Notes under the pieces: model-generated
Seen by the model: the letters and a program-made list of their open reading frames with translations, nothing else
Told to the model about the DNA's origin: nothing
Database searches by the model: none
Position numbers and translations under genes: made by a program
Shown here: positions 42,844-59,635 of the stretch, piece by piece
Layout: each line of letters begins with the position of its first letter
Numbering within the stretch: position 1 is the first letter of the stretch
DNA from: Bacillota bacterium
Lineage (GTDB): Bacteria > Bacillota > Sulfobacillia > JACIYH01
Length of the DNA stretch: 64,000 nucleotides
Direction: 5' to 3'
Assembly (NCBI GenBank): GCA_040757085.1
Contig: JBFLXJ010000023.1
Span: forward strand, 252,457 to 316,456

Positions 42844-43353
42844 GTCCATACCCCTCCTTGCGGACGGGCCGTAAGCGATGTCTGTCCTGCGTAGAGCATA
42901 CACCATCCTGGAGCGGGCGGGCAATGCGGCCACCGCCCGGTGCGGGAGTCGTGGAGGAAGCGATGGACCTGCCGATGGGTACTGGTTGAACGATCCAGCG
43001 GACCAGCAGTTCGACCTCGGACCCAACCGGGCGACCTGGACCGCCGGATCCTTTGCCATCTGGGGTTACCCTTGCCGTAGCCGCCGGGCGGAAGTCGCGG
43101 TTGAGCGAGAACCCAACTGCCCCGATGCCTTCAATTACCGTCGCCTCGGGAACTTGCGGTGGTTTCTTGGCTGTGGCTTACCAACGCGACCGAAGTAAAC
43201 CCCCCAAACCGTCCCGGGACCTGCGTATGAGCTAATGCGGGGACAGCAGTATCCCCGGACCCGCCGTGAGTTGCTCTTCTGGCCGGCGGGATGGCGTTTG
43301 GTAGCTGTCGGGGGTTCGCCCCAAGAACGTCTTGTCTGAGGAGGGAGATGCGT
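42844..43353. other. Divergent intergenic region before the first S8 protease
   Basis: No convincing gene is seen in this stretch of about 500 bases. It carries the DUF1844 leader on the left and the SigI-like promoter of the protease on the right. Confidence 0.5.
43198..43227 (+). promoter_or_regulatory. Putative SigI-type promoter of the first S8 protease
   Basis: The box AACCCCCC ends at 43205, and CGTA starts at 43224, 18 bases on. The SigI promoters I know of are described as ACCC(CC) and CGWA boxes. The protease start is about 125 bases farther. Confidence 0.6.
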
Positions 43354-46300
43354 ATGCCTCACTATCGGAGGGGGAGCCGGCTGTTGAGAGCGGCAGTGGG
43401 TTTGATCATGTTCTTCGTCCTTGTTGCCCCTGTGTACGGCGGCATGCCGCAGCCAGGGGGAACGGTGCATGCTGCCGGGACCTTGCCCCTCCCCTCTGAC
43501 GTCAAGGATGTCACCGATCTGCAGGCGACTGACGGTGCACAGCAGGTGCTCGTCGACCAGCTAAACCTAGCCAGGGAACAGGCTGCCGAGGTCGTCCGTC
43601 AGCTGGCCCAGATGGCCGACGAGGTTGACGAGGCCATCCGACAGAGTGCCAGATCCGTTGCGGATGAAGCGAAGGACCTGGGCACCGAACTGGTTGGGCA
43701 AGCGGCCGACGTGCTTAAGGATGCTGTGTACCGAGCAGGGGATATCTTGGCGCGTGCACAGCAACGCGTCGGCGAACTTCCTGTCGGTCTGCCGCGTATC
43801 GGCAAAGCCTTGGTTGGCCCTACTCTCACTGACTTGCTCGAGACACTCAAACCAGGTGACACGGTGGAATTGCTCATCACTTACGATCATTACCCTACTC
43901 AGGCTGACCGTGTGAGGCTCCTGGAGACGGAGGTCCGCGGCGGCATACAGATGAATGTGCTGCCCGTGATTGCAGTTGTGGCTCCCATCTCAGCGGTGGA
44001 CGACATTGCTGCGCTGCCGGGGGTCGTCTCCATTTGGTACAACCAGAAGTTGCAGTATTTCATGAAAGACAGCCGTGTCCTCATTGGGGTCGACAAGCTA
44101 GAGAAGGACCGGCGCTTCCAGACTCTGTGGCCCCGGAAGGATCCCGCCACAGGCCAGCCCGTTCCGCCCTTGGGGACCGGGGTCAAGGTGGCCGTGATCG
44201 ACAGCGGTATCGACGCCCTCCATCCAGATTTGCCCCTGGGTGACAAGGTGGTAGAGAACCGGAAGGTACTGGGGTTGAGCGTGGTGGAAGAGTTGGGCGT
44301 GCCGGACATCATTGGCCTGAAGTTGTCCCCGATTCTGCCCAACACCGATACCACGAGCGGGCACGGGACCCACGTGGCGGGCACGGTGGGTGGCCTGGGG
44401 ACGATGTGGCAGGAAAATGCAGGCGTCGCCCGCAACGTGAAGCTGATCGGACTCGGTACGGGCGAAACTCTGTTTATCCTTTCTGCCGTCGAGGCGTTTG
44501 ACTGGGTACTTGAGTACAACTTGCGGCATCCCAACGACCCCATCCGCGTCACCACTAACAGTTGGGGTACCAGTGCGCCCGCTGACCCGTTTGATCCGCA
44601 GTACGGATTCCTGACGTACCTTTACAATCCCGTCGTCGTTGCCACACGGATGCTCTACGAGCAGGGCGTGGTTACCTTATTCGCGGCTGGGAACGACGGC
44701 GGCTACGGGACGATTAACCCGTATTCGGTCTGGCCGTGGGTAATCAGCGTTGCGGCCGGAACCAAGTCGGGCGAGTTGGCCGGTTTTTCGTCGCGCGGGT
44801 ATGATCCCCTCATGGAGCACGATGGCAGGTTCTACAAGGTGCACCGGTTGGGGCAGTGGTCTTTCCGGCTCATCGACCTCCTCCATCCCGACATCACCGC
44901 ACCGGGTGTGGACATCATCTCTGCGCGGGCTAGCACGGGCGTCCTGCCGGTTCTGGCCGCCACCACGGACGTGACCACGCTGGGCACGAAGGCTGCTTTC
45001 TACACGGTCATGAGCGGCACAAGCATGGCTACGCCCCATGTGGCGGGCGTGGTTGCTCTTCTGCTGAGTGCGGATCCCAGCTTGACGCCGGCCCAAGTGT
45101 ACCAGGTGCTGGTGGAGACGGCACAACCCATGGTCCAATATGCCGAGTACCAGGTCGGCGCGGGATACGTCGATGCATATGCTGCCGTCCACAAAGTGCT
45201 GGCTAAGAGGGCGCTTGGCCTTGACCTGCCTTACGGGCGGGGTTACCCTGTCGCCACTCCGGTACCCTACGGGGACAGACCTGACTGCGGATACGCGATG
45301 ATGCCGTTGGGGGACCCGTGGCAGGAGGCCGGCTCCTACGTAACGGGGCGGCGGCAGTACTACAAGTTCAGCCGTCCGTTTCCCTTGGGGACGACTACGG
45401 TGAAGTTAACTTCCCAGTACGACCCGACGGTGGATGTGCTTATCTCGACCAGCAACATCTGGATTTACCGTCCCACGGACGGTAAGCGCACTCCGCGAGA
45501 CGACGAAGCGGTGGCGATGTTCACGGGTATGGACAGCAAGGTCTTCATCAATGACCCGGTGGTGGACAACGGCAGGGATGAGGACGACTCGGATCTGTAC
45601 TGGTACAACCTGCGTGGCGCTTTCTCTGTCCTCACGGGTACTGGTGGGGCGGAGCTGCCTAGGAAATTTGCCTTCACGGTTCAACCCCTCGGGCTTACCT
45701 TCACCGATCAGGCGTTTGCTCGCTCCCTGCAGTCTCTTACTGCCGAAGATCGCGCTTTGGTTAGGAAGCTAGTGCGAGCGGGGGTGCTTGCTCCGTTTGG
45801 TGCCTTTAACCCGGACGCGCCGATGAAGCGGGCAGACTTGGCGCGTGCGGTGGCTCTCCTCGCGCGTGTCAAGCAATATGCTCCAGAGGTGCCGACCTAT
45901 GGCGACGTTGGGCTCCACCACCCAGCCTACGTGTTCGTGGAGTCGCTTCGGGGCCAGTGGGATTTCGCGGGTCAATCGGAACTGCCCCGGGGCGTAGACG
46001 TGAGGAAGGTTATGGGCGGTGCGACGGTAGATTCGAGCACGGGGGCTACGGTGCCGATGTTGGAGGGCGAAGCTACCTTGTTCCAGCCCCATGCACCGGT
46101 GAGCGCTCTGGATGCGGTGGTGACCGCCGGCACGTTGGCTGGCAAGCAGTCGCGGGCCGAGGAATTGGCCAAGCAGGCGAACGAGCATCCGTACGTGGAA
46201 TTTGTCCACGACAAAGAAGGTGGCGTGCTGCGCTTGCGAGTGATGAGGCAGGGGCTCACCGCTAGGCAACTCGGGTACATCGCCCTCGCTTTTGAGGAAG

Positions 46301-46479
46301 GCTGGCTCGATCCGATCAGGGAGGTCGTGGTTAAGCAGCCCACGTTTGAGCAATGGTACCAGTGGTACTTCTTTGGGCGCGGGAAAAAGCCTGAGTGGGT
46401 CGTGGAGTTGTACTTTGACCCGCTCGAGCCGGCCAAAACGCTGAACGTATACCGGGTGATAGACAGGGTGTGCAGGTGA
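43354..46479 (+). CDS. Exported subtilisin-family (S8) protease with N-terminal helical region and C-terminal SLH-like region
   Basis: A secreted 1041-residue protease. Signal peptide residues 1-40 (RLLRAAVGLIMFFVLVAP). A helical, charged region of about 90 residues (QQVLVDQLNLAREQAAE on) and an I9-like propeptide come before the catalytic domain. The triad is Asp283 (VAVIDSGIDALHP), His337 (GHGTHVAGTVGG) and Ser557 (GTSMATPHVAG). The oxyanion Asn lies in LFAAGNDGG and looks intact. The last 300 residues contain a part resembling one SLH repeat (AFNPDAPMKRADLARAVALLA). I choose ATG 43354 because the AGGAGG ends nine bases before it; ATG 43348 is closer. The substrate is unknown. Its SigI-like promoter lies 125 bases upstream. 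Confidence 0.9.
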   Translation: MPHYRRGSRLLRAAVGLIMFFVLVAPVYGGMPQPGGTVHAAGTLPLPSDVKDVTDLQATDGAQQVLVDQLNLAREQAAEVVRQLAQMADEVDEAIRQSARSVADEAKDLGTELVGQAADVLKDAVYRAGDILARAQQRVGELPVGLPRIGKALVGPTLTDLLETLKPGDTVELLITYDHYPTQADRVRLLETEVRGGIQMNVLPVIAVVAPISAVDDIAALPGVVSIWYNQKLQYFMKDSRVLIGVDKLEKDRRFQTLWPRKDPATGQPVPPLGTGVKVAVIDSGIDALHPDLPLGDKVVENRKVLGLSVVEELGVPDIIGLKLSPILPNTDTTSGHGTHVAGTVGGLGTMWQENAGVARNVKLIGLGTGETLFILSAVEAFDWVLEYNLRHPNDPIRVTTNSWGTSAPADPFDPQYGFLTYLYNPVVVATRMLYEQGVVTLFAAGNDGGYGTINPYSVWPWVISVAAGTKSGELAGFSSRGYDPLMEHDGRFYKVHRLGQWSFRLIDLLHPDITAPGVDIISARASTGVLPVLAATTDVTTLGTKAAFYTVMSGTSMATPHVAGVVALLLSADPSLTPAQVYQVLVETAQPMVQYAEYQVGAGYVDAYAAVHKVLAKRALGLDLPYGRGYPVATPVPYGDRPDCGYAMMPLGDPWQEAGSYVTGRRQYYKFSRPFPLGTTTVKLTSQYDPTVDVLISTSNIWIYRPTDGKRTPRDDEAVAMFTGMDSKVFINDPVVDNGRDEDDSDLYWYNLRGAFSVLTGTGGAELPRKFAFTVQPLGLTFTDQAFARSLQSLTAEDRALVRKLVRAGVLAPFGAFNPDAPMKRADLARAVALLARVKQYAPEVPTYGDVGLHHPAYVFVESLRGQWDFAGQSELPRGVDVRKVMGGATVDSSTGATVPMLEGEATLFQPHAPVSALDAVVTAGTLAGKQSRAEELAKQANEHPYVEFVHDKEGGVLRLRVMRQGLTARQLGYIALAFEEGWLDPIREVVVKQPTFEQWYQWYFFGRGKKPEWVVELYFDPLEPAKTLNVYRVIDRVCR

Positions 46480-47298
46480 AGCGCCTGGCGGAGCAGGAGG
46501 GAGGCGTGCGGGGGCGCCTCCCTGTTCGTCTGCCAATGGGGTGTGTGATGATCTGCCACCCTGCGGACCCTGGTATGCGGCGTCTGCTCAATCAAGGCCG
46601 GCAGGAGGACTGCGGTTAGTGGCACGGTTAGCGGAGGTTCGGCCCGTGCCCGGGGAGCGAGATGCGCAGGCGCGCTGCTGGCGCGCGCTTCCAGACGTGA
46701 TCGCGAAGAGTGCAGCACGCTTGGCTGTTCCGCCCCGCGCGTGGCGGTTGCATGGCGGGATCGGGGAGGGTAGTGTCTCCGGTCGGGCACGTCGACGCGC
46801 GGGTCAAAACCGCATCTGCCGGAGGGTAGTGCGCTATCGTCATACGCGAGCTTACTGGTTCCGAGACCGGCAGGTACATAACCCCCTGCTCGGGGTGGCG
46901 GGGTGCACCTCACCCCTGTCCAGGCACGAGGGGTTCAAGGAGATATTCCGGTACGTCTGGGGCATTCCCCGTCGGGTGAGCCACGTGTGGCCAACTCGTC
47001 CGTGGCGGCTTACCTGAGGCGACCCCGCGGCTGTCACAGCGGCTACGTTCGCCATCCGAAATATCCGAGACGAAGCGTCAGAAAACCGTGAGACCGAACA
47101 GGCAGGACTGGCAGCTTTTTGCTTCGTATACTCACATTGCCTGCACGCGCGGGGCGTGGGCCCGGTCGTCAACGCATGCGGGGGCACGCGTGCCGGGGCT
47201 TCATGCTGATGTAAGTAGCAAGAACGGCTGTGCTACGCTTGCTTGGGATCCGTGCTCCGTTGCTCGGCTGCAGTAAGCGGGGGAGGCACCCTGCAGAA
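46480..47298. other. Long intergenic region between the first protease and sigI
   Basis: Open frames of up to 158 codons exist here, but none resembles a known protein and their codon use is irregular, so I call no gene. The left edge has the terminator of the protease. No copy of the ACCCCCC-CGTA promoter was found before sigI. A weak variant ACCCCGC-N17-CGTT lies at about 47020. Confidence 0.5.
46499..46530 (+). terminator. Terminator hairpin after the first S8 protease
   Basis: GGGAGGCG at 46499 pairs with CGCCTCCC at 46515-46522, followed by TGTTCGTCT. Confidence 0.6.
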
Positions 47299-48051
47299 AT
47301 GAATGAGTCGCTTGGGGAACTTATCCGCCGGGCACGGGGGGGCGAGGTGGAGGCCCGCGAGAATCTCATTCGCACCTGGCAGCCTTTCGTCCGACTGGTA
47401 GCATCGAGCGTGTGCGGGCGGCACCTGTCTTGGGAGGCCGCGGACGACGAGTTGAGTATTGCCCTGATTGCTTTCAACGAAGCGATTGACCGTTATGAGT
47501 CCGGCCGCGGGGTAGACTTCGCCCGGTTTGCGCGTCTCGTGATCACCAGCCGCCTGAAGGATTACATACGCAGGGAAGCACGCCATCGGCACCTGGCCCT
47601 TGTTCTGGTGACGTCCGATGGAGAGGAGTACTTGCCGGCTGAATATGGGTCGTCAGCGACACGTTACGAGGTAGAACAGGACGCACAGGCTCTGGCCGAG
47701 GAGATCGCTGAACTTGACGGCCTTCTGCGGCGGTTCGGCTTTAACTTCCGTTCGCTTGCGCGTTGTTCCCCGCGGCACCGCGAGACCCGGGACCGATGCG
47801 TTCAGGTTGCACTTGAGCTCGCGCGCGACCCGCAGTTGCTGGGAGAACTTACTGTGCGGCGCAGACTGCCCCTAAGCGAGCTCCAGAGACGGACGGGCGT
47901 GAGCCGGAAAGTTCTGGAGACCTGGCGGCGCTACATTGTGGCGCTCACCTTGATCCTCGCCTGCCCGCAGTTCGTAGGCCTGAGACAGTTCCTGCACATG
48001 GACGGCGAGCTGGGTGCAAAGAAGCAGCCGAGCGCGGGCTTGTCGGGCTAG
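47299..48051 (+). CDS. sigI: RNA polymerase sigma factor SigI
   Basis: SigI-family factors direct RNA polymerase to promoters for cell-surface and extracellular functions and are held by RsgI. The 250-residue protein has region 2 (ENLIRTWQPFVRLVAS, DDELSIALIAFNEAIDRY, VDFARFARLVITSRLKDYI) and the family's C-terminal domain (GLLRRFGFNFRSLARCSPRH, RRTGVSRKVLETWRRYIVAL). ATG 47299 follows GGGGGAGG at a rather long spacing of about 12 bases. It converges with rsgI instead of preceding it in an operon, which is unusual. Confidence 0.88.
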   Translation: MNESLGELIRRARGGEVEARENLIRTWQPFVRLVASSVCGRHLSWEAADDELSIALIAFNEAIDRYESGRGVDFARFARLVITSRLKDYIRREARHRHLALVLVTSDGEEYLPAEYGSSATRYEVEQDAQALAEEIAELDGLLRRFGFNFRSLARCSPRHRETRDRCVQVALELARDPQLLGELTVRRRLPLSELQRRTGVSRKVLETWRRYIVALTLILACPQFVGLRQFLHMDGELGAKKQPSAGLSG

Positions 48052-48084
48052 GTCGGAGCGCGCCCGGTCCGCCGGGCTTTTGGG

Positions 48085-49722
48085 CTAGGGGATGGGTAGT
48101 ACCGCATAGGCAGGTTGGAGCGAACCCACCGGTGGGGTCACGGGTTCCGGCTGCGGTACGGCCGGCTTCGCTTCGCCACTCCCCTGGGTGGGCGGAGGCA
48201 GCAGGATGGTGGGTTCCCCCGCCCGGGTGGTATTCCCGACGTCAGGAGAAGTGTCCGGCAGGGCGGGCTCTCCAGAGTGCCCCGTCATGTCCCGGGCGTC
48301 GACAGTGGGTTCGTGGGGGACGCTAGGAATGCCCACGACTCCAGCCGTTTGCCGTGTGATCAGCCCGCTCGTTGCCTCGTCATCACCCCAGTGCACAGCC
48401 CCGGTGACAGCCTCGGTGACAGGGGTCATCTGCTGGGCGGTGCGCGCTGTCACGGTTGCTTCCCTACTCGTCTCGGGAACTTCTGTAAAGACCCCTTGCA
48501 CCAGTTGGCCGGCCGTTTGTGTGACCGTAGAAGCGGTGCCAGGTGGCACGGCGCTCTCGTACGCTGCGGGAGATGGAGTCTGACCTTGTAGCTGGTTGCT
48601 ACCAGAGGCCGTTGAGCCTTTCTCGGCCGTTTGCTGCTTCTGTTCTTTGGCGGATATTCCACGCTCGACTGGCACGACCCGGGACTGGTTGACCGGTGCA
48701 GGCTCGTGCGGGTCACCGCCACCGTGGGCGAAGGGATCCACGTAGGGGTACGAAGAGCTGTCCTGGTTTACGGGGACCAGCCGTTGGATGACCGGTCCGA
48801 GCACCATGTTGCTGTCAAACAGGTTGCTGACGCCCACCTGGGCGAGAAGCTCGCTCAGGTCCAGGGTGCGGGCTTTGCTTCCCTGGTCCCCGTGCAGAGC
48901 CTTCCGAATGAGGAGATACCGGGACACAGTGACTCCTGCGGCACTGGCCTCTCGATACAAGCGAGCGCGGGCCTCGTAGACAAACACCGTACCGCCCGCG
49001 CGGTGGCGCATCAAGGAACGTTCTACGGCCTGATAAGCAGCATCAGGTGCCAACGAGAGATCATTTCCAATCATGCGCAGGCGAACGAATGCGATGAACA
49101 CAACGTTTCGCTGACTGGGAGAAAGGTACCCGAGGTGCCAGGCTTGGTCCAAGAGACGGGTTAGCGCGTCTGCGAGGTCGAGGCCCGCCACGGAAACGCT
49201 CCGCAGCAAGTGCGACGCATGGGCGTTCAATGGCTCAGCGGTAAGAACGCGACCGGACCGATCGAGAGCCAAGTTGAGGCTCGGGTTGAGGTCTATGGCC
49301 ACCACGGCGGCTGGTCCGGCTAGGGCGGCCCAGAGACTCCACATCAAAGCCAAGAGGAACACCGCGGCCGCAAGCGCACAGCGCTTCCACGGGCCGATCT
49401 GCACCCACGCGCGCCAAGCCCGGGGGCCGGCCAAGCGTTCTGCTGGTACCCGGGGGTTTTCCGCTGCGACGGTATTTACCGGTGGCTGCTCCCTCAGGAG
49501 GGTGATACAATCAGCGGTTAAGATGTCGCATGGTACGGAAGCACTGGAGCGCCTAGCCGGATCGGGGACCGCACGCAGCCGGTAGCAGGCTCCAATCCGG
49601 GGAACAGGGCCGCGGAACGGCACCTCCAGGAAAAAACCGTTGTCTGTCAGTACCACGGCCTTATCGCCATTGACCGCTACCACTAGAGCGCCGCGGTCTG
49701 AGTTCGTGCTACTCTGCGTCAT
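48085..49722 (-). CDS. rsgI: RsgI-type transmembrane anti-sigma factor
   Basis: The 545-residue protein begins with the RsgI N-terminal anti-sigma domain (GALVVAVNGDKAVVLTDNG). A single transmembrane helix follows near residues 114-135 (KRCALAAAVFLLALMWSLW). Outside the membrane is the conserved IDLNPSLNLALD, whose Asn146-Pro147 matches the reported autoproteolysis site of RsgI proteins. The later region (LLIRKALHGDQ, then a Pro/Gln/Thr-rich tail) is the extracytoplasmic part; no carbohydrate-binding or enzyme domain is recognisable. The stop is 34 bases from sigI's end. Its start follows GGAGAGACC. Confidence 0.88.
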   Translation of the reverse strand: MTQSSTNSDRGALVVAVNGDKAVVLTDNGFFLEVPFRGPVPRIGACYRLRAVPDPARRSSASVPCDILTADCITLLREQPPVNTVAAENPRVPAERLAGPRAWRAWVQIGPWKRCALAAAVFLLALMWSLWAALAGPAAVVAIDLNPSLNLALDRSGRVLTAEPLNAHASHLLRSVSVAGLDLADALTRLLDQAWHLGYLSPSQRNVVFIAFVRLRMIGNDLSLAPDAAYQAVERSLMRHRAGGTVFVYEARARLYREASAAGVTVSRYLLIRKALHGDQGSKARTLDLSELLAQVGVSNLFDSNMVLGPVIQRLVPVNQDSSSYPYVDPFAHGGGDPHEPAPVNQSRVVPVERGISAKEQKQQTAEKGSTASGSNQLQGQTPSPAAYESAVPPGTASTVTQTAGQLVQGVFTEVPETSREATVTARTAQQMTPVTEAVTGAVHWGDDEATSGLITRQTAGVVGIPSVPHEPTVDARDMTGHSGEPALPDTSPDVGNTTRAGEPTILLPPPTQGSGEAKPAVPQPEPVTPPVGSLQPAYAVLPIP

Positions 49723-49801
49723 CGGACGGTCTCTCCATCCATTTCACGCCGCGAGACCGCAGACGTACACTCATGTTTGCCGACCTTCCCCTTGGGATAT
49801 A

Positions 49802-49831
49802 TACGCGGGCTAAAACACCCTCCGGGGGGTT
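49802..49831 (-). promoter_or_regulatory. Putative SigI-type promoter of rsgI
   Basis: On the minus strand AACCCCCC (49831-49824) is followed after 18 bases by CGTA (49805-49802), exactly as at the first protease gene. The rsgI start is 80 bases farther. Confidence 0.6.
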
Positions 49832-49862
49832 GACGCAACCCGGTTTTGGAGCCGCTGCCCTT

Positions 49863-49892
49863 ACCCCCCGAAATCACAGGCGTCCGTACGTA
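49863..49892 (+). promoter_or_regulatory. Putative SigI-type promoter of the second S8 protease
   Basis: ACCCCCC at 49863-49869 is followed by CGTA at 49885 and again at 49889, spacings of 15 and 19. The start codon is about 75 bases on. Confidence 0.55.
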
Positions 49893-49964: not shown

Positions 49965-52900
49965 GTGTGCGGACCGCGGTGCAGGCGCAGTCTTATGCGC
50001 CTTCTTCTGACAGTGGTTCTTGTCGCATGCGTCGCGGTCACGGCTGGTGCCCCCACACGGGCATTGGTCCAAAACGACCTTGGTGCAGCAGCAGGTGCTT
50101 CGGTGAGCGGTACGCAAGGAGTTACAGAGGGTGGGACCGAGGTGCTTGACGGCACGGTGCAGCCAGCTCCAGGTTCGGTGCAGGACACCCTTGAGGGAGG
50201 AGCGAGCAGCCTCCAGCTCGGCGTCGAAGGCACCGCGGGCCCGCTCCAAAGTGCGATCACGGATTCGGCCAGCCCCGTCCAGGGTGCCGCCGAAGGTGCT
50301 GTGGAAGCGGTTAGCCAAGGTATCTCGGGGACCACAGGAACGCTGCAGGACGCCGTTGGGAACGTGGGCGGGGGCTTGGAGGATGCGCTGCGTGGTGTCG
50401 TGGATAGGGCTACAGCCCCCTTACAGGAAAATGCCGGCTTGCCCGGCCTGGGGGGTGCCGGTGAGAATCCGGCCCCGGCCGCTGAAGCCCCGGAGGAGCG
50501 GCCGGTGCCCGAACGCGTGCTGGCAATTATCGTCTGCGACCATGGAGCCACTAGTCGTACCCTGGAAGCTCTCTCCGCCCTTGGCGTAACTGGTGGCGTT
50601 GTGTTCCAGCACCTACCCATGGTGGCGGTTGCCGTCGACGCTCGCCAGTTGGCCATGCTGAGGAGGGTGCCGGGTGTCCGGTCGGTGTTCCTGGACCGAC
50701 CTCTAGAGTGCTACCTCAACGAAAGCGTTCCCACCATCGGCGCTCCTGCGGTCTGGCATGTCCTGGGATTCACCGGGCGCGGGGTGACGGTGGCCGTGGT
50801 TGACACGGGCATTGATGCCACACACCCCGACCTGTTGTTTGGGGGCAAGACGGTTGAAAACGTGAAGGTGGCAGGTGGGCGGAGCTTGCTCGAGGGCTCG
50901 GGGTTCGAGGGTTTTGTACTGCCCGTGTACCTGACGCGTCAGCTGGTCACGGACACTACCAGCGGTCACGGGACTCATGTGGCTGGTATCGTTGCGGGAA
51001 CTGGATCCGCGAGTAGCGGTGCCCGCAACGGCGCGTACGTGGGGGTGGCGCCGGGCGCCTCGCTGGTTGGGATCGGTACCGGAGAAGGGTTGTCGCTGTT
51101 TTCGGTCCTGGAGGCCTTCGACTGGATCCTTGCTAACAAGGAGCGCTACAACATCCGCGTGGTTAACAACAGCTGGGGCACTTCCGGGCAGTTCAATCCT
51201 GATGATCCCATAAACGTGGCGACGCGAGCCCTCTATGATCGGGGCATAGTGGTGGTTTTCGCTGCTGGCAACAGTGGGCCCAGCCCCGACACGCTGAACC
51301 CTTACGCGGTGGCGCCGTGGGTGACCGGCGTGGCGGCTGCCTGCAAGGAAGGAGATGTGGCGGACTTCTCCTCGCGGGGTGTACCGGGCGACGACCTGTA
51401 CCGGCCGACCGTAACTGCCCCAGGGGTGGCCATCGTATCTGCCCGGACCAAGACGGTGGGCATCACTGCCCTTGCAGCCGCTGACGATTCCAGTGGCATC
51501 CCGCCCGATTTCATCCCGTTCTATACCACCATGAGCGGTACGAGCATGGCGGCTCCCCACGTCGCGGGTGTGGTCGCCCTCATGCTCGAGGCAAATCCGC
51601 GCTTGGACCCGGAGACGGTGAAGGAGATCCTGATCAACACGGCCCGGCCGATGGGGGGCCGTCTGCCCTACGAGGTGGGCGCAGGCCTCGTCGATGCTGA
51701 GGCGGCGGTACGGGAGGCACTGACCCTCGACACGCCCGAGAAGATCCGTGCTTATCGAGTCCGGGAAGCGAGGAACCAGGACGCTGTGGACGGATCCTGG
51801 GCCACCGTAGCAGGAACCCTGGGTCCATCCCTGACGTACGCAATAGGTGACGGGGTCTTTTATACCGTCAAGGTGCCGCCCCGCACGGTGCGGCTGTGGG
51901 TCAGGTTGTCTTGGGACAGCGAACTCAACGACCTCGACCTATTTGTGACCTCCCCGGATAGCGCTCAGAGGATTGCGTCTCAGCGCTTCCAGATCATGGA
52001 GGGTGGTGCGTGGGAGAGTGTGATCGTCGAGTCGCCCATGGAGGGTGCCTGGACGGTGAGCGTGCGCGGCTGGTTGAACGCTCCGACCGCGTACCGCCTT
52101 TCTTACCGCGTCAGCGCGGCAGTTACCGGTCAGCCCGGAGAGTCCGGCAGCGGGGGGCCCGGCGGCGATGCTGGCGCAGGCGGTGGCACGGTGGGGGAAC
52201 CCCAGCCTGGTGACGGCACCGGCACCCCTCAGGAGCCCGGGAGGGATCACACGCGAACGCCCGGCGGGGCTGCACCGGGCGGTCAGACAAGTGGTGGCTG
52301 GGGCGGTACGGAGGTAGCAAGGGGCGCTAGCGCGGGTCAGGGTGGCCCCTCAGAGGGTAGTGGGTACGCAGGAGGGCAGGCCGGTGGTGCTAAACTACTG
52401 GCTGCTACTGACAATGAGCGGCGCAACCTGGTCTGGCAGTGGGCGCTGGCTCGGGGGCAAGTCCGCGCGGGCACGTTTCTGCCTATTGCTGGCGGAAGGT
52501 TCTTAGACGTAGCGGATCACTGGGCTGCGCCAACCCTGACCTTGCTCGCGGAGTTGGGCATCGTGCGTGGCGTTCGGGTCGCCCAGGGGGTGGCCTTGTA
52601 TCCAGACCGCGCCATCACTCGAGCGGAACAGGTTGCCATGCTCGGTCGTGCTCTGGCTTATATCGAGGGTCGACCCGACCCGGCAAGCGCTCCCCATGGG
52701 CGGGCGATCTTCGGTGACGTGGTGGGGCACTGGGCTGAACCGTATGTGACAGACCTGTTCGCGCGAGGTTTAGTGCGCGGCGTGCCTGAAAAGGGCGGGG
52801 CTCCGCGGTTTTTCCCGGAGAACCAGGGCACGCGGGCGCAGGCCGCCGTGTTGATTGCGCGGGCGCTCGGCTTGCCAGAGCAGGTGATGGGTAGCCCCGA

Positions 52901-53111
52901 GTACGACGTGCCCTTCGTGGACGCGAGAGGGCATTGGGCTGAAGGGGCTATCTGCAGCCTGTGGCAGGCCGGCCTGGTTAGTGGGTGTCCCGGCCGAGTC
53001 TTCGAGCCGGATCGTGCTATAACCCGGGCGGAATTTGCCACGCTGATCATGCGTCTGCTGGCCTCCAAGGTGGCTGGTCAGCCGGTGGCAACTGGGGGAG
53101 GTGGCAGGTAG
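49965..53111 (+). CDS. SLH-anchored subtilisin-family (S8) protease
   Basis: A 1048-residue protease starting at GTG 49965 after GGGAGGTGAT. Signal peptide (MRLLLTVVLVACVAVTAGAP), then a low-complexity amphipathic region (residues ~35-160), an I9-like propeptide, and the catalytic domain with Asp280 (VAVVDTGIDATHPDL), His335 (GHGTHVAGIVAG) and Ser527 (GTSMAAPHVAGVVAL). The oxyanion Asn (FAAGNSGP) is intact. A beta-sandwich-like segment (WVRLSWDSELNDLDLFVTSP) is followed by a Gly/Thr-rich linker. The last 200 residues hold three SLH repeats (FLDVADHWAAPTLTLLAELG, IFGDVVGHWAEPYV, PFVDARGHWAEGAICSL), which anchor proteins to secondary cell-wall polymer. The catalytic residues suggest an active cell-wall-bound protease. 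Confidence 0.93.
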   Translation: MCGPRCRRSLMRLLLTVVLVACVAVTAGAPTRALVQNDLGAAAGASVSGTQGVTEGGTEVLDGTVQPAPGSVQDTLEGGASSLQLGVEGTAGPLQSAITDSASPVQGAAEGAVEAVSQGISGTTGTLQDAVGNVGGGLEDALRGVVDRATAPLQENAGLPGLGGAGENPAPAAEAPEERPVPERVLAIIVCDHGATSRTLEALSALGVTGGVVFQHLPMVAVAVDARQLAMLRRVPGVRSVFLDRPLECYLNESVPTIGAPAVWHVLGFTGRGVTVAVVDTGIDATHPDLLFGGKTVENVKVAGGRSLLEGSGFEGFVLPVYLTRQLVTDTTSGHGTHVAGIVAGTGSASSGARNGAYVGVAPGASLVGIGTGEGLSLFSVLEAFDWILANKERYNIRVVNNSWGTSGQFNPDDPINVATRALYDRGIVVVFAAGNSGPSPDTLNPYAVAPWVTGVAAACKEGDVADFSSRGVPGDDLYRPTVTAPGVAIVSARTKTVGITALAAADDSSGIPPDFIPFYTTMSGTSMAAPHVAGVVALMLEANPRLDPETVKEILINTARPMGGRLPYEVGAGLVDAEAAVREALTLDTPEKIRAYRVREARNQDAVDGSWATVAGTLGPSLTYAIGDGVFYTVKVPPRTVRLWVRLSWDSELNDLDLFVTSPDSAQRIASQRFQIMEGGAWESVIVESPMEGAWTVSVRGWLNAPTAYRLSYRVSAAVTGQPGESGSGGPGGDAGAGGGTVGEPQPGDGTGTPQEPGRDHTRTPGGAAPGGQTSGGWGGTEVARGASAGQGGPSEGSGYAGGQAGGAKLLAATDNERRNLVWQWALARGQVRAGTFLPIAGGRFLDVADHWAAPTLTLLAELGIVRGVRVAQGVALYPDRAITRAEQVAMLGRALAYIEGRPDPASAPHGRAIFGDVVGHWAEPYVTDLFARGLVRGVPEKGGAPRFFPENQGTRAQAAVLIARALGLPEQVMGSPEYDVPFVDARGHWAEGAICSLWQAGLVSGCPGRVFEPDRAITRAEFATLIMRLLASKVAGQPVATGGGGR

Positions 53112-53136: not shown

Positions 53137-53239
53137 CTTACCTCGATAAAGGCAAACCCGGCGAAAGCCGGGGACGCAAAGCCATCGGGTCTACGGCGTC
53201 CGTGAGGACGCTATGACGGCTGGGCTGCCGAAGGGTAGG
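53137..53239 (+). ncRNA. Cyclic di-GMP-I (GEMM) riboswitch
   Basis: P1 is CTTACCT (53137-53143) with GGGTAGG (53233-53239). P2 is GGCAAACC-CGGC-GAAA-GCCG-GGGACGCAAAGCC (53151 on), the GEMM-I hallmark. P3 is capped by a GCGTCC-GTGA-GGACGC hairpin and ends GACGGCTGGGCTGCCG. The sequence next to P2 (ATAAAGGCAAACC) resembles canonical c-di-GMP sensors rather than cGAMP variants. It precedes the third S8 protease gene. Confidence 0.92.
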
Positions 53240-53264
53240 GGTGGAAATGCAGAGACCTTGCGAT

Positions 53265-53293
53265 CCCTCGGTGTCAGCCGAGGGCTTTTCTTT
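53265..53293 (+). terminator. Intrinsic terminator of the c-di-GMP riboswitch
   Basis: CCCTCGG and CCGAGGG form a 7-bp stem with a 6-base loop, followed by CTTTTCTTT. The 5' stem CCCT can alternatively pair with AGGG of the riboswitch P1 strand, so ligand binding would favour termination (an off switch). The 3' arm GAGGG also serves as ribosome binding site for the TTG at 53292. Confidence 0.8.
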
Positions 53294-54605
53294 GCAGCTG
53301 GGGTGGTGTCGGTTTGGAGCGGCGGTTGTTGCGCTGCTCCTGACTACCGCGCTCGTGGGCTTGCCCTGCGTGCCGCGAGGTTGGCAACCCGCGGATGCTG
53401 CATGCCGACTTCCTGTTGCCGGTGGGCAGTTGAAGGGGGCGGACGTGGGATTAGCGGAGGCAGGACAAGCGCAGATGTGGCACGTTGTGACGTACAGTCG
53501 GGTGCCCGGGCGGGAAGATCTCGCCAGATTGCAGCGGGCTGGTGCCACCGGGGGTTGGGTATTGCGGCACCTTCGCATGGTGGCGGTCAAGGTACGTACT
53601 AACGAGGTGGAGCGGTTGGCAGCACTAGACGGCGTGCTCTCCGTCTATCCGGGAGAGCGGGCTGTGTTCGTTCCCAGCCCTGTTCCTGAGGGGGCAGATC
53701 GGATTTCCGGCCTCCGTGAACCGGTGGCACTTGCTGCTGCTCTGGTCAGGGGCGTCCGAGTGCAGATGGGTGGGGCTACCGGGGGCAGGGGCGATGCTGC
53801 GAGTGAGGAAATTCCCGCCGTGGCGCTGGTGGACACCGGACTGGATGAGACACACCCCGCGTTTGCGGACGTGGTCGTCCGCGCCAACCTCAGGTTCAAG
53901 CTCGACTCTGCTCCCACCGATTTCCAGTGCCCGTCGGCCACCCCGTGGGAGAGCCACTGTGATCCGGTCGGTCATGGCACGGCCGTGGCGGGGGCCGTCT
54001 TGGCGGGGTGGGAGGCAGCTGAACGCTCGACGGGTGGGCGGTCGAGCGAGTGTCTTTCCGAGGGGTCGCATGCGGCCCGCCGCATGGTCCCGGCCCTCGC
54101 TTTGGTGTCGTTGAGCGCTGGCAATAGCCCCGCGTGGGTTGTGGAAGTGCTGGCCGCCATGGATTACGTTATGGGACACGGCGCTTCTCTGGGAGTGCGG
54201 GTTATTAACAATAGCTGGGCCGTGGGGGGCCCATGGGACCCCCGGCACCCCATTAACGTGGCCACGCGTCAGCTTGCCGAGGCCGGGTTCGTCGTTGTGT
54301 TTAGTGCCAGGAGTGCCGACGGCGAGTTCAACGCGTTTGCTCGTGCCCCCTGGGTGATTCCTGTAGATGGAAGGTCGGTGGAAGGAGCAGTGAGTGCCGC
54401 TCCGCTAGTGCAGGTTGTCCCGCCCGTTCCGGGGGAGCCGCTTCAACCCGGGCGGTTGCAGGTGGTACTGGTCGGTCCCCGGTTGGTACCCGGTGTTCCG
54501 CTTGCCGGCACATCGAATCTGACGGCCATCAACGGCACCAGCGCTGCGGCGGGATACGTTTCCGGGTGGCTGTTGTGGGCTGCCAGCTGCCCCGGACAGC
54601 GATGA
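53292..54605 (+). CDS. Degenerate exported subtilisin-like (S8) protein
   Basis: The 437-residue protein starts at TTG 53292, inside the terminator's U-tract and eight bases after GAGGG; a start at GTG 53241 or ATG 53247 would put the terminator inside the coding region. A signal peptide (RFGAAVVALLLTTALVG) and I9-like propeptide come first. The triad is kept: Asp181 (ALVDTGLDETHPAF), His228 (GHGTAVAGAV) and Ser417 (NGTSAAAGYVSG). But the oxyanion Asn of the FAAGN motif is replaced by Ser341 (FSARSADG). The Pro-His after the Ser is lost too, and the protein lacks SLH repeats. It may be a weak or dead protease, perhaps a regulator or decoy. It lies behind a c-di-GMP riboswitch. Confidence 0.8.
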   Translation: MQLGWCRFGAAVVALLLTTALVGLPCVPRGWQPADAACRLPVAGGQLKGADVGLAEAGQAQMWHVVTYSRVPGREDLARLQRAGATGGWVLRHLRMVAVKVRTNEVERLAALDGVLSVYPGERAVFVPSPVPEGADRISGLREPVALAAALVRGVRVQMGGATGGRGDAASEEIPAVALVDTGLDETHPAFADVVVRANLRFKLDSAPTDFQCPSATPWESHCDPVGHGTAVAGAVLAGWEAAERSTGGRSSECLSEGSHAARRMVPALALVSLSAGNSPAWVVEVLAAMDYVMGHGASLGVRVINNSWAVGGPWDPRHPINVATRQLAEAGFVVVFSARSADGEFNAFARAPWVIPVDGRSVEGAVSAAPLVQVVPPVPGEPLQPGRLQVVLVGPRLVPGVPLAGTSNLTAINGTSAAAGYVSGWLLWAASCPGQR

Positions 54606-59224: not shown

Positions 59225-59348
59225 TGAGGCGGGCTCTCGTTCCCGGGTTCCCCTTCCCGGCCGGCCCCGGTCCCGGTGACTGCTCTCCCGGATGGGTCCC
59301 TGGCCCCGTGGGCCTGTGCGTCCGGTGCGGTCGCGTGCCCGGTTGCCC

Positions 59349-59441
59349 TCCCTACGCTGGCATTACCCAGATCAGGTTCCAAGGGTTGAGCATGGCCGCT
59401 CTCTCAGCCCGCAGCGCGTCTCACCGCGAGCACCCCTGGGC
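59349..59441 (-). ncRNA. TPP (thi-box) riboswitch
   Basis: Read on the minus strand, the conserved elements appear in order: CCAGGGGTGC, GGCTGAGAG, ACCTGATCTGGGTAATGCC and AGCGTAGGGA. This is the complete TPP aptamer. The nearest thiamine gene downstream in that direction is thi4, about 780 bases away and beyond the oppositely oriented NUDIX gene. Confidence 0.93.
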
Positions 59442-59635
59442 GATTCACTTTGCTCCAATGTAACACGTGTGAGGCCCGGCGGCAATACCGAGGAGAGCAG
59501 GGCAGTGACTGTCTCGACGACATCGGCTGCAAGTTCCACCCCTTCCGCTGCCGCTTTGCGGTTGTAGACGAGGGCGGGGATGCTGTCCGGGAGGCCGTTT
59601 GGGTATCTGGTCGGGATGTAATACCCGTCGCCCAC
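59372..59635 (-). pseudogene. HEPN-domain protein remnant
   Basis: The frame reads GYYIPTRYPNGLPDSIPAL and AAAEGVELAADVVETVTALL, the typical C-terminal end of HEPN-domain proteins (often toxins or nucleotide-binding partners). The N-terminal half is absent and the upstream frames are broken by stops. Its reading frame runs into the TPP aptamer. It is likely a decayed fragment. Confidence 0.5.
59457..59485 (-). promoter_or_regulatory. Promoter of the TPP riboswitch transcript
   Basis: On the minus strand TTGCCG (59485-59480) and TACATT (59462-59457) are 17 bases apart. Transcription would begin about ten bases ahead of the aptamer. Confidence 0.55.

Follow-up and report, generated by a model that had tools for sequence, protein, structure and literature searches.

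We propose that three sites in a protease gene cluster of this bacterium are promoters read by the sigma factor SigI encoded in the same cluster, and put the probability of this reading, judged from sequence, at roughly 85%. The stretch of DNA analysed, called the window below, comprises 64 kb of a 2.67 Mb host genome (G000) with 67% G+C. Since the promoter signature is shared by two S8 protease genes and rsgI, is conserved in a related family and fits the SigI encoded beside it, the cluster very likely forms a self-contained switch for cell-surface remodelling. Its features are listed in Table 1.

Table 1. Features of the sigI-rsgI protease cluster, with positions in the window.
Feature	Position	Strand	Basis or layout
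SigI-type promoter (predicted) of S8 protease a	43199..43227	+	ACCCCC-CA-AA-N15-CGTA; N18 from ACCCCCC to CGTA
S8 (subtilase) protease a (S8a)	43354..46479	+	PF00082, E 3.7e-39
sigI, sigma-I factor	47299..48051	+	NCBIfam NF006175, 244.4 bits (cutoff 244)
rsgI, membrane anti-sigma factor	48085..49722	-	RsgI_M domain PF23750, 66.8 bits
SigI-type promoter (predicted) of rsgI	49802..49830	-	ACCCCC-CG-GA-N15-CGTA; N18 from ACCCCCC to CGTA
SigI-type promoter (predicted) of S8 protease b	49863..49892	+	ACCCCC-CG-AA-N16-CGTATTA; N19, or N15 to an earlier CGTA
S8 protease b (S8b) with C-terminal SLH domains (cell-wall anchor)	49965..53111	+	PF00082, E 4.1e-49; PF00395, E 8.4e-22
c-di-GMP-I-GGC riboswitch	53142..53233	+	Rfam RF03167, 71.9 bits; 31 nt 3' of S8b
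S8-like protease c (S8c), smaller	53247..54605	+	PF00082, E 1.6e-12; D/H/S motifs; start read from sequence

A search of the window for ACCCCCC-N14-19-CGTA returned exactly three matches. An earlier note on this DNA had reported three such sites, and pattern search found each of them exactly where it had been placed. The same note had assigned boxes of the ACCC and CGWA type to SigI promoters. This assignment was correct, because the consensus printed for Bacillales in PMC4711584 is ACCCCC--AA-15(N)-CGAA, with two bases between ACCCCC and AA, and the clostridial -10 element is CGWA; the agreement extends to spacing. All three sites carry the ACCCCC -35 element. Two bases further on, the S8a and S8b sites have AA and the rsgI site has a partial GA, and the distance from this position to CGTA is 15 nt for S8a, 15 nt for rsgI and 16 nt for S8b. 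Spacing at the S8a site is thus exactly that of the Bacillales consensus, and all three sites fit it within one base. The CGAA form of the Bacillales -10 element is absent from all three, CGTA standing in its place as in clostridial promoters of the SigI3 type. The rsgI site is the weakest, with GGA after the C run where the others have AAA. For the site at 49863 the N19 spacing is favoured over N15, because its homologue in G003, a genome of the same class but a different family, reads ACCCCCCGAAATCGTATGGCGGCCTGCGTATTA and has CGTATTA at the same longer distance.

Both regulatory proteins are recognizable. SigI matches the solved SigI1 and SigI6 structures (8i23, 8i24, 6ivu), including their C-terminal domain, and scores 175.6 bits against TIGR02895, under the cut-off of 185. 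The minor-groove K/H/R motif of its -35-binding domain reads PRHRETR as compared with PKHRDSR, so that His-Arg is kept and Lys is replaced by Arg. When RsgI is aligned to chain B of 8hdj and 8heq, N146-P147 coincides with the cleavage boundary of the solved RsgI fragments, Pro147 aligning with residue 1 of the cleaved fragment, a chain that starts at Pro. The cytoplasmic anti-sigma domain RsgI_N reaches 22.7 bits in this protein against a cut-off of 25. The outer tail is long, rich in Pro, Thr and Ser, and has no recognised sensor module. A sequence scan of genome contigs with SigI found no relative, and a search of plasmid records returned only Bacillaceae SigI proteins of about 34% identity.

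In the window, and likewise in locus L049 of G003, sigI and rsgI are convergent and do not form a same-strand sigI-rsgI operon. In the other loci read that hold both genes, sigI lies 5' of rsgI on the same strand, with a gene in between in L059 of G037. Neither reading of the upstream sequence nor the matrix scan of the window revealed a SigI-type site 5' of sigI.

Next to be considered is how readily such sites arise by chance. Dinucleotide shuffles of the window (n=100) contained on average 0.54 matches to the bare pattern and reached three matches in 4 cases, and the bare pattern is therefore weakly unusual in the window. The earlier note had proposed a scan of the whole genome, which gave a divided answer. 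By pattern search, from which all genome-wide counts given here derive, the bare pattern has 13 matches in the host genome against 11 for the reversed control and is not enriched, yet 10 matches fall outside the cluster, and 9 of these are within open reading frames of at least 266 amino acids. The tenth (C2:62704) is intergenic; in our reading it flanks the 3' side of an antisense gene and does not clearly precede any gene. Adding the AA of the published extended -35 element leaves 3 matches in the host genome, two of which are the S8a and S8b sites, and the tight form ACCCCCCNAA-N14-16-CGTAW matches these two alone; a search of 154 genomes of the class gave 11 matches to this form against 9 for its reversed control. 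The three sites scored 27.6, 26.3 and 22.2 bits in a matrix scan of the window, where the best of the other, non-overlapping sites reached 12.5 bits. This bears out the remark of the earlier note that nothing similar precedes the housekeeping genes. The bare-pattern counts and the shuffles by themselves would suit the view that the sites are chance C-rich matches picked by eye in a 67% G+C genome. We consider this view hardly credible, given the literature spacing at all three sites together with the cross-family conservation, the two-way prediction and the association with S8 and SLH genes described below.

Comparison with other genomes supplies the main evidence. In G003 we identified a cluster comprising S8a, an extra S8 gene, convergent rsgI and sigI, S8b-SLH and S8c. 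Gene order is the same as in the window apart from the extra S8 gene and the inversion of the sigI-rsgI pair as a unit, and the SigI proteins of the two clusters are sisters in the tree (support 96/87). Sites 5' of S8a, S8b and a second S8a copy in G003 read ACCCCCGAAA, ACCCCCCAAA and ACCCCCCGAAA, respectively. Taking G000 and G003 together, ACCCCC[CG][AG]AA occurs 73-150 bp before the start of all five S8a/S8b-type genes, whose upstream regions have little else in common, exact shared words outside the motif being mostly of chance length. The -10 element is not conserved in two of the five (TGTA at G003 S8a, CATA at G003 S8b).

Each cluster predicts the sites of the other. A two-box matrix made from the three G003 sites alone ranked the window sites at 49863, 43199 and 49830 highest in the 64 kb, with 24.1 bits for S8b, 22.5 bits for S8a and 15.9 bits for rsgI. 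The maximum in 100 dinucleotide shuffles was 20.4 bits, which the S8a and S8b sites exceed. A score of 15.9 bits is expected 0.37 times per 64 kb by chance and is not significant alone; what supports the rsgI site is where it lies and how its boxes are spaced. Conversely, the matrix built from the window sites placed the S8b and S8a sites of G003 first in L049, and it also gave the top match in L120, L138, L140, L139 and L055.

Association with surface proteins extends further into the class. In five genomes, the extended pattern ACCCCCN1-2AAN13-17CGWA stands directly 5' of S8 or SLH genes in 8 of its 18 matches, while its reversed form does so in 0 of 19 (Fisher P 0.001). This pattern was derived from the published consensus when the window sites were already known, and the value calculated without those two sites (P 0.005) is therefore the fairer one. 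Proteins encoded 3' of these matches include SLH proteins in G003, G014, G001 and G002. In G037, sigI and rsgI each have a site of the type ACCCACC[GA]A[AT]-N15-CGTATT, and two divergent secreted TPR-Cu_amine_oxidN1 genes have ACCCCCC...CGTAT sites, back to back with those of sigI and rsgI; G003 also has a gene of the TPR-Cu_amine_oxidN1 type behind such a site. Across four families (G000, G003, G014, G037) the signature is linked to sigI/rsgI. The next-scoring SigI loci (in G146, G019, G143, G151, G009 and others) contain no S8/SLH cluster.

Other SLH and S8 genes of the class have promoters of a similar kind, so that the regulon would not be confined to this locus. The small SigI regulon of anti-sigma factor and cell-surface proteases proposed in the earlier note is supported, with amendments. 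Published promoter architecture, the presence of SigI and RsgI in the cluster, conservation, and the preference of the extended motif for S8 and SLH genes all argue for it; the amendments are that sigI itself has no such site, that S8c lies behind a riboswitch instead, that an SLH anchor is detectable in S8b only and that the regulon appears wider than the locus.

The linkage to sigI/rsgI also bears on whether the sites might serve an ECF-type sigma factor as promoters, or be bound by a regulator recognising a C-rich motif, and lie near sigI by coincidence. Such a coincidence is very improbable in view of the linkage in four families; moreover, the -35 element is ACCCCCC with an A-tract, the signature of SigI and not the AAC of ECF promoters, and we saw no ECF gene among those of the cluster. 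The idea draws on the likeness of ECF and SigI -10 elements (PMC6056542) and on the S8b site of G003, which keeps a conserved CGTCCGT stretch and not CGTA.

Which SigI would read the sites is a separate question, as the host genome has two further sigI-rsgI operons encoding SigI paralogues, on contigs C3 and C24. The other SLH and S8 genes of this genome mostly have no motif, but one SLH gene has a closely similar promoter of the TAAA...CGAT form, ACCCCCCTAAA-N14-CGAT. One could thus imagine that the three sites are of SigI type but serve chiefly one of the paralogues, or all SigI factors. We regard this as distinctly unlikely. In the congeners G001 and G002 only paralogous SigIs were found, the tight CGTA form has no match there, and their SLH and S8 genes have TAAA...CGAA or CGAT forms, which suggests that the preferred -10 element differs between SigI types. 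The CGTA form accompanies the window type of SigI in both G000 and G003, and in Clostridium thermocellum SigI specificities are distinguished by the W at position -12, CGTA versus CGAA (PMC10575876). A lead from few sequences is SigI residue 93, hydrophobic in proteins of the CGTA type and Thr, Met or Gln in those of the CGAW type, which may read position -12. Upstream of the paralogous sigI genes of the genus (L045, L047, L048) we observed a shared GGACGCAA...CGAAAGGATGTGG element just 5' of the start, possibly another type of sigma-I promoter.

We favour the SigI of the cluster itself as the reader of the three sites, and its presumed targets are secreted proteases. S8a starts at ATG 43354 (or 43348) after GGAGGGAG, has a signal peptide by inspection and intact D/H/S triad motifs, and no SLH domain was detected in it. 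The D/H/S motifs of S8b are intact as well. A scan with an S8a alignment matched distant S8 proteases only, with identities no higher than 40%. Between S8a and rsgI, a scan for sigma-70 promoters and terminators brought up no site of use, nor anything that it defines as a terminator; a strong hairpin lies 3' of S8a, and read-through from S8a into sigI may occur. The approximately 820 bp separating S8a from sigI contain an open reading frame (46541-47017) that has no Pfam match and may be non-coding. Similar low-complexity, helical-looking stretches rich in Ala, Gly and Thr occur in the RsgI tail (48085-48800) and the N-terminal part of S8b (49965-50500), more clearly in the G003 counterparts, and could possibly represent a shared recognition feature.

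Transcription of the third protease gene, S8c, may start at the S8b promoter. The c-di-GMP-I-GGC riboswitch preceding S8c has a counterpart in G003, likewise between S8b and S8c (L049:12051-12141). In the predicted fold the ribosome-binding site of S8c falls within the P1 stem of the riboswitch, and c-di-GMP therefore probably switches S8c off. Two other riboswitches were observed, a TPP riboswitch in the window (59332-59447, minus strand; RF00059, 73.1 bits) and a borderline c-di-GMP-I riboswitch (L055:3693-3762, minus strand) 5' of the sigI-rsgI pair of G014, where the adjoining SLH gene has a SigI-type site.

From these elements a working circuit can be drawn. RsgI would hold SigI at the membrane, and an outside signal acting on the outer part of RsgI would cause release of SigI. 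The likely route is self-cleavage at Asn-Pro and then intramembrane and ClpXP cleavage, that is, the RsgI cleavage route of PMC12203970. Polymerase carrying SigI would transcribe S8a, the SLH-anchored S8b and rsgI, and transcription of S8b would probably read on into S8c, gated by c-di-GMP. With a SigI-type promoter in front of rsgI and none in front of sigI, activation would yield more of the brake, and we infer negative feedback with a pulse-like response that would deploy or remodel surface proteins. Such wiring is not uniform in the class, since sigI and rsgI of G037 both have a site. A further elaboration, which we think rather unlikely, is a decoupled circuit, in which rsgI and not sigI is controlled by SigI, the S8 proteases act on the outer tail of RsgI or on its ligands and so feed the state of the proteases back to SigI, and c-di-GMP separately gates one protease.

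By most tested features the system belongs to the SigI-RsgI kind. Its promoters resemble those of Bacillus subtilis SigI-RsgI (sigI, lytE, mreBH, bcrC) in the ACCCCC -35 element, the A-tract and a CG[AT]A -10 element some 15 nt further on (PMC4711584), and the SigI and RsgI families and the cell-envelope genes as outputs are shared as well (PMC4711584, PMC7478892). It differs from B. subtilis in having CGTA, not CGAA, as the -10 element, S8 and SLH proteases as presumed outputs, and convergent sigI and rsgI in separate units instead of an operon, sigI being devoid of a site. In Clostridium (Acetivibrio) thermocellum, SigI1-SigI8 and their RsgI partners are cellulosome regulators (PMC4711584, PMC6056542, PMC10575876). 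Like SigI3 promoters of this species (CCCYYAAA, CGWA), the window sites combine CCC and an A-tract at -35 with CGTA at -10; several SigI paralogues per genome with related promoters and an Asn-Pro cleavage site in RsgI are further likenesses. Unlike in C. thermocellum, the RsgI tail has no recognised sensor module, the presumed targets are proteases and not glycanases, and the spacing is Bacillales-like (15-16 after AA) rather than 13-14.

Control by c-di-GMP has a parallel too. In Clostridioides difficile, a type I c-di-GMP riboswitch lies 5' of a secreted protease gene, and surface proteins are under riboswitch control. The window shares a type I c-di-GMP riboswitch 5' of a secreted protease gene; unlike in C. 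difficile, this protease is of the S8 family and lies in a SigI cluster.

In the literature searched, SigI regulons consist mainly of heat and cell-wall genes in Bacillus and of cellulosome genes in Clostridium. In the G+C-rich lineage studied here, the SigI system goes together with genes for S8 proteases and S-layer-anchored proteins, and the promoters are conserved in several families. The cluster also combines separate wiring of sigI and rsgI with a conserved c-di-GMP riboswitch. If the three sites are read as we propose, SigI control would extend to surface proteolysis.
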